A DNA stretch of 64,000 nucleotides, taken from contig NZ_QRGB01000001.1 of NCBI RefSeq assembly GCF_003449035.1, positions 1,116,001 through 1,180,000 of the forward strand, in the 5' to 3' direction. The stretch's first letter is position 1. Every line of letters begins with the position of its first letter. Below, in pieces: positions 21,926-46,112 of this stretch. The position numbers were made by a program, and so were the translations under genes. Below the pieces are notes generated by a model. That model ran no database searches. It was given only the letters and a program-made list of their open reading frames with translations, and had not been told where the DNA came from. Origin of the DNA: Pedobacter indicus. GTDB lineage: Bacteria > Bacteroidota > Bacteroidia > Sphingobacteriales > Sphingobacteriaceae.

Positions 21926-22000
21926 GGGAGATTAGCTCAGCTGGTTCAGAGCATCTGCCTTACAAGCAGAGGGTCACTGGTTCGAATCCAGTATCTCCCA
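21926..22000 (+). tRNA. tRNA-Val (TAC anticodon)
   Basis: The 75-nt sequence folds as a cloverleaf. Acceptor arms are GGGAGAT/ATCTCCC with discriminator A; the D arm is GCTCAGCTGGTTCAGAGC; the anticodon stem TCTGC/GCAGA carries loop CTTACAA (anticodon TAC); the T arm is ACTGG TTCGAAT CCAGT. The 3' CCA is not encoded. Confidence 0.97.
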
Positions 22001-45970: not shown

Positions 45971-46002
45971 TTTGGAAAATACAATACTTAGTGTTACTTT
46001 TA
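45971..46002 (+). promoter_or_regulatory. Promoter of candidate small RNA copy 2
   Basis: TTTG at 45971-45974, 20-bp spacer, TACTTTTA at 45995-46002 (one mismatch). ACTATCA begins two bases after the -7 octamer, exactly as in copy 1. Confidence 0.5.
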
Positions 46003-46006
46003 CACT

Positions 46007-46112
46007 ATCAAAATCAGAGCAATCAAATTTTGGTAATTGGTTAAATGTCTTTTCATAATTTAGGTTTATAATTGGTTAGTTCAAAACCCCTGCCCATCAG
46101 GGGTTTTGTTAT
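46007..46112 (+). ncRNA. Candidate small RNA, copy 2
   Basis: Starts in ACTATCA (46004-46010); carries the same 28-nt block as copy 1 at 46053-46080, then the terminator 46082-46108 (11-bp stem CAAAACCCCTG/CAGGGGTTTTG, loop CCCAT). Between start and block are about 43 extra bases, including GGTAATTGGTTAAATG, which partly repeats the block's AATTGGTTAGT. About 105 nt if started at the predicted promoter. It may also serve as the end of the sialic-acid operon mRNA. No ORF of note. Confidence 0.6.

Follow-up and report, generated by a model that had tools for sequence, protein, structure and literature searches.

Post-transcriptional control of polysaccharide-utilisation loci has already been shown in Bacteroides. 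FopS of Bacteroides thetaiotaomicron comprises 14 paralogous small RNAs (sRNAs), each with an open 5' seed and a Rho-independent terminator (PMC11697453). These RNAs repress susC translation by pairing at the initiation region, which provides an experimental precedent for the present work; they are bound by the RRM protein RbpB, some members are derived from 3' UTRs, and one copy has been reported in a phage (PMC11697453). Another sRNA of the Bacteroidota, the intergenic GibS, has a long unstructured 5' seed that pairs at start codons, and is linked to amino-sugar metabolism (PMC7366714). Unlike the RNA described below, GibS is encoded only once; it is 145 nt long and acts through two seeds on metabolic targets (PMC7366714).

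The stretch analysed here (the window) is 64,000 nt of the genome of Pedobacter indicus and holds two copies of a candidate sRNA gene, called copy 1 and copy 2 (Table 1). Copy 2 is probably a member of a Sphingobacteriaceae-specific family of trans-acting sRNAs, carbon-controlled, whose seed would pair at the starts of SusC genes and repress them in the manner of FopS. Like FopS, the Sphingobacteriaceae RNA is multicopy, with 7 copies here and up to 24 in relatives. Copy 1 and the module of copy 2, again like FopS, are predicted to combine a single-stranded 5' seed with a Rho-independent terminator, although the seed of full-length copy 2 may be paired. Pairing with susC translation-initiation regions is the third likeness, and for the Sphingobacteriaceae RNA it is a computational one; by computation, then, this RNA would work as FopS does. 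It comes, however, from another bacterial family and has another sequence, the comparison with FopS being one of descriptions, and no Rfam match of it to a Bacteroides sRNA was found. It differs from FopS, too, in the operator that it has in common with glycolytic genes, in its two conserved classes of terminator loop and in its tRNA-like 5' partners. Enterobacterial sRNAs of the Spot 42 and SgrS type are also controlled by carbon status and act, with the help of Hfq, on uptake genes; the likeness is functional only, since their sequences and targets are unrelated to those of the Sphingobacteriaceae RNA.

Table 1. Features of the two copies and of one candidate target site in the window
Feature	Start	End	Strand	Remarks
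Copy 1, -7 box TATATTTG	23053	23060	+	
Copy 1, 28-nt block	23066	23093	+	begins ~6 nt past the -7 box (short type)
Copy 1, terminator hairpin	23095	23125	+	CTCCCCG-class loop
ATAAACCTAA before the MFS start codon	44665	44674	+	perfect 10-nt complement of UUAGGUUUAU of the seed; 3 nt before ATG; p 0.042
Copy 2, TTTG (-33-like element of the promoter)	45971	45974	+	putative, from sequence; 20-nt spacer to the -7 box
Palindromic operator AGTGT-N7-ACACT (AGTGTTACTTTTACACT)	45990	46006	.	overlaps the copy 2 promoter
Copy 2, -7-like box TACTTTTA	45995	46002	+	from sequence; same layout in relatives
Copy 2, predicted small RNA	46008	46112	+	~105-110 nt; from anatomy and conserved family; putative start
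Copy 2, partial second seed TAATTGGTTA	46034	46043	+	G-U wobble pairing with the main seed predicted
Copy 2, family module GTCTTTTCATAATTTAGGTTTATAATTGGTTAGT	46047	46080	+	seed region; includes the 28-nt block (46053-46080)
Copy 2, intrinsic terminator	46082	46108	+	perfect 11-bp stem, loop CCCAT (GCCCATC class), T-rich tail

The block shared by the two copies, TCATAATTTAGGTTTATAATTGGTTAGT, is exact over 28 nt, as an earlier note on this DNA had described. The common offset from the -7 box to ACTATCA given in that note is also present (TATATTTG-T-ACTATCA from 23053 and TACTTTTA-C-ACTATCA from 45995), and the ACACT within this stretch of copy 2 is part of the palindromic operator. Promoters of the Bacteroidota follow the consensus TTTG-N~20-TAnnTTTG, in which TAnnTTTG is the -7 part; transcription of copy 2 would start at about 46007-46010. 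Both copies do face a reverse gene, with convergent genes downstream of each. A cis-regulatory leader or attenuator would need a gene under its control downstream on the same strand, whereas copies 1 and 2 and the orthologue of copy 2 in a sister species (G001) all face convergent genes. An Rfam 15 scan of the window returned only a tRNA-Val at 21926, and no sRNA family above the gathering threshold; the weak matches on single copies (JA04, ohsC and others, E<=10) were discarded, as they lie far below gathering scores and their context is unrelated.

The terminators of the two copies had been called different, which applies to the stems, whereas the loops are conserved and belong to two classes found throughout the family, CUCCCCG in copy 1 and GCCCAUC in copy 2. 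Among 105 terminators there are 50 distinct 5' arms, and the loops fall into the two near-invariant, C-rich classes CTCCCCG and GCCCATC. In 16 representatives 95% of the stem cells are paired, with 42 two-sided changes, a result matched by none of 500 shuffles. Since the stems change by compensation while block and loop stay fixed, selection acts on the RNA. Used as a second seed against SusC leaders, the CUCCCCG loop gave no signal.

Copy 2 also contains about 43 extra bases with a partial copy of the block; the observation is correct, but neither the extra bases nor the partial copy is kept in the sister-species orthologue. In the predicted fold of full-length copy 2 the partial seed pairs with the main seed, so that the latter may be masked, and UAAUUGGUUA is self-complementary when G-U pairs are allowed. 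The seed is predicted to be open in copy 1, and likewise when the module of copy 2 is folded by itself. It may be, then, that copy 2 masks its own seed until a target, a protein or cleavage before the block frees it.

With up to 3 mismatches allowed, the 3.47 Mb genome has 7 matches to the 21-mer TTTAGGTTTATAATTGGTTAG, six of them exact and one with a single mismatch, and the reversed 21-mer, used as a control, had 0 matches; chance is thus excluded for the block. All these matches are the RNA copies themselves, and no long antisense target was seen in the whole-genome 21-mer search. Absence of the block from related genomes had been named as grounds for rejecting an RNA gene, but the core is present in 182 of 201 sampled Sphingobacteriaceae genomes, at up to 24 copies per genome. 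At up to 3 mismatches 28 of 41 relatives carry it, and the matches outside the Sphingobacteriaceae look like chance. In 384 other Bacteroidota genomes a search with the 18-nt core at up to 1 mismatch gave a single stray match, with 1 mismatch. The named records that bear the module are Sphingobacteriaceae (Sphingobacterium, Mucilaginibacter, Parapedobacter, Pedobacter, Olivibacter and others), and no earlier description of such an sRNA family was found in the literature searched. Across the family, 26 nt of the module are invariant while flanks and stems change. The 150 copies examined include 39 short ones with the block 8-18 nt past the -7 box (copy 1 type), 39 with a longer 5' part ending in GTCTTYTCATAATTT (copy 2 type), 44 behind a tRNA-like sequence, 10 with a distinct CCTCAAAATAACAT lead and 18 others.

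A conserved class-II tRNA-like RNA occurs in loci from outside the P. indicus genome (L026, L028, L031, L033, L036, L043, L073, L091, L132, L185, L190 and others), with an acceptor of the form TGTNGGR...YCCNACA, a G discriminator, a Leu-like D arm GGTGAAAT..GGCAGACAC, a loop TTGTCNC, a long variable arm and a T arm GAAGGTTCGAYTCCTTC; compensatory changes are visible by eye in its acceptor and T-stem. These RNAs often occur in tandem beside a divergent Lrp/AsnC-like gene, and in many arrays the final unit is joined to the sRNA module. Minimal elements, which have an acceptor and a T arm, in some cases also a D-like arm, and lack an anticodon arm, stand directly before the module in L027, L030, L046, L101 and L125. 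The tRNA-like elements of the family were rejected as real tRNAs, as neither ARAGORN nor Rfam called them. The exact module core was also found in 37 viral contigs (L483-L519), where many copies are complete with their own terminators and several lie behind tRNA genes; portal, terminase or tape-measure genes were among the neighbours in 5 of the 6 viral contigs checked.

The operator AGTGT-N7-ACACT overlaps the promoter of copy 2 and of many short copies. A survey of 1.16 Mb of loci gave 31 such sites; 23 of them sit no more than 110 nt upstream of a module RNA, and the gap is 7 with a single exception. The genome has only 3 exact sites, that of copy 2 among them, and two of the 3 are at module RNAs. 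Elsewhere, exact or near-exact sites stand before the genes for pyruvate kinase (L206), gapA (L204), enolase (L217) and phosphofructokinase (L224), suggesting that AGTGT-N7-ACACT is the site of a Sphingobacteriaceae glycolysis regulator. Single-mismatch matches are individually weak, because chance matches are common. Two further genes, one sugar-kinase-like and one of the MFS type, also have an operator or near match upstream (L223, L225).

Copy 2 lies in the same direction as the MFS gene, about 75 nt past its stop codon. The adjacent operon encodes NanA/DHDPS-like, NanM-like and sialidase-like BNR proteins together with this MFS protein, and does look like one for sialic-acid use, which is not needed for the existence of the RNA. 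On the other side a GPx gene is convergent with copy 2, and a NagK-like kinase gene is two places downstream. The orthologous RNA of the sister species has an identical 17-bp operator and the same GPx and kinase genes ahead of it, but the gene that it follows encodes a DNA glycosylase. The earlier description of copy 2 as closing the sialic-acid operon is therefore not supported: the shared neighbours are limited to the convergent GPx gene and the kinase gene, and copy 2 is very probably an independent gene, not the tail of that operon. Paralogous sRNA genes, as the earlier note had proposed, agree with the multicopy family, the covarying stems, the promoter and operator and the syntenic orthologue, and only the link to the sialic-acid operon is lost. 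An independently started sRNA gene among paralogues is thus strongly supported for copy 2 on comparative grounds.

SusC start regions stand out as targets. Against positions -60..+20 around the start of 47 SusC genes, the module gave a mean duplex energy of -13.35, compared with -10.74 (sd 0.68) for dinucleotide-shuffled modules, 0/100 of which reached it; start codons were set by rule, and the energies were computed without target accessibility. As z scores the results were -3.8 in P. indicus (G000) and -4.1, -4.2 and -5.5 in G004, G016 and G012, each with 0/200 shuffles, as against -1.0 for the other, non-SusC genes of P. indicus and -1.6 to -2.1 for SusC genes of genomes in which the module is missing or diverged. 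The complementarity is restricted to -60..+20, with a mean excess of -2.64 there, about -0.6 farther upstream and +0.3 inside the gene. Complementarity is stronger for SusC genes of module-bearing genomes than for other genes (p 1e-15) or for SusC genes of module-less genomes (p 7e-4). In P. indicus 13 of the 47 SusC genes reach p<=0.05 singly, and the pairing often spans the start codon.

An unsupervised 6-mer ranking of SusC against other leaders, made without the RNA sequence, pointed the same way. The top word of the pooled ranking was AACCAA, the complement of UUGGUU, which also ranks high in each module-bearing genome taken singly; it occurs in 23/97 SusC leaders and 26/825 other leaders (p 1.7e-11), and AACCTAA in 9/97 SusC leaders. 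Permuted control words were flat in the same comparison. The target search with UAAUUGGUUAGU as seed proposed in the earlier note was aimed at the right region, since the UUGGUU core and the upstream UUAGGUU match SusC start regions. The leader of one SusC gene (C1:1423619-1426672, locus L237), for instance, carries AACCAAUU and AACCUAAAUU. SusC leaders of genomes where the module is missing or diverged show a rise in AACCAA-type motifs as well, though a weaker one (17/74 vs 47/151), so the signal may partly be a general feature of SusC leaders or reflect other sRNAs. Start regions of random neighbouring genes showed no excess of 7-8-mer seed complements; an earlier apparent excess in neighbouring genes was dismissed, having come largely from ATG-containing k-mers. 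The 5' part of copy 2 was dropped as an additional SusC seed, its signal being weak or inconsistent (z -1.3, -2.3).

One relative, G008, has a seed diverged to AUAGGUUUAGGUUAG. Its copy-2-type RNA (L203) has the same operator, a CTTTCTCATAATT lead and a terminator, with the seed CATAGGTTTAGGTTAG. The most enriched words of G008 SusC leaders include CTAAAC, CCTAAA and ACCTAA, and these leaders fit their own seed better than the common one (paired p 7e-4), whereas those of the other genomes fit the common seed better than that of G008 (p 7e-6).

Of the genes in the window, two gave the best duplexes: the NagK-like kinase gene (p 0.018) and, immediately upstream of copy 2, the MFS gene (Table 1). 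As local targets both are only suggestive, the choice being post hoc and the statistics those of single genes. The duplex of the module with the sialic SusC gene of the window is weak (p 0.25).

Under the reading preferred here, each family RNA would consist of a mostly single-stranded 5' part with the invariant seed CAUAAUUUAGGUUUAUAAUUGGUUAG, followed by the terminator hairpin, and the seed would pair with SusC translation-initiation regions and repress them. Bound at its operator by a putative regulator answering to a sugar signal, the promoter would let the RNA report central-carbon status, as the operator also precedes glycolytic genes, and adjust polysaccharide-utilisation loci. Several other explanations need to be weighed. 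That copy 2 is a processed or read-through 3' UTR of the MFS gene and sialic-acid operon, ending in an ordinary conserved terminator and lacking its own start, would fit its position, direction and terminal hairpin, but is very improbable given the -33 and -7 boxes, the family-wide operator, the persistence of both in the sister-species orthologue, where the preceding gene is unrelated, and an invariant 28-nt block that a terminator does not need. A role of the AACCAA-type motifs as translation enhancers in SusC leaders, with the complementarity to the RNA arising as a by-product of base composition, is also quite improbable: dinucleotide-shuffled seeds never reach the observed value in four genomes, the excess of module-bearing over module-less SusC would be left unexplained, and the G008 leaders covary with their own seed, even though the motifs are raised in the module-less genomes G005 and G025 too.

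The module might instead be a site for an RNA-binding protein or a processing enzyme, serving 3'-end protection, maturation or as a sponge, with SusC pairing secondary or absent. The invariance of 26 nt amid changing flanks and stems agrees with this, as does the range of sequences that module and terminator follow, from short leaders and longer 5' parts to tRNA-like RNAs and true phage tRNAs; a role in stability or protein binding would also account for a module that ends phage and tRNA-containing transcripts, and RbpB binds FopS RNAs in Bacteroides (PMC11697453). We consider it unlikely, as it predicts neither the SusC complementarity centred on start codons in four genomes nor the reciprocal match of seed and targets in G008; a protein site and SusC pairing are nevertheless compatible, and both can be true. 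A wider proposal, tentative and rather doubtful, is that one SusC-silencing seed RNA is made by three routes, namely carbon-controlled promoters, tRNA-like precursors from which tRNA-processing enzymes release it, and phage genomes. In that case a phage would bring along the transporter-silencing RNA of its own host, perhaps so as to close SusC/TonB receptors to its competitors.

If SusC repression by this family is real, that of Bacteroides would be joined by a second family of sRNAs, in the Sphingobacteriaceae, unlike it in sequence and directed at the same kind of targets, and the silencing of SusC by multicopy sRNAs would be suggested as a general strategy of the Bacteroidota. It would also tie SusC control to a glycolysis-type operator and indicate phage-borne and tRNA-like-borne versions. 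Judged from these sequences, the bacteria probably use the RNA to turn off the uptake of complex sugars that they do not need.
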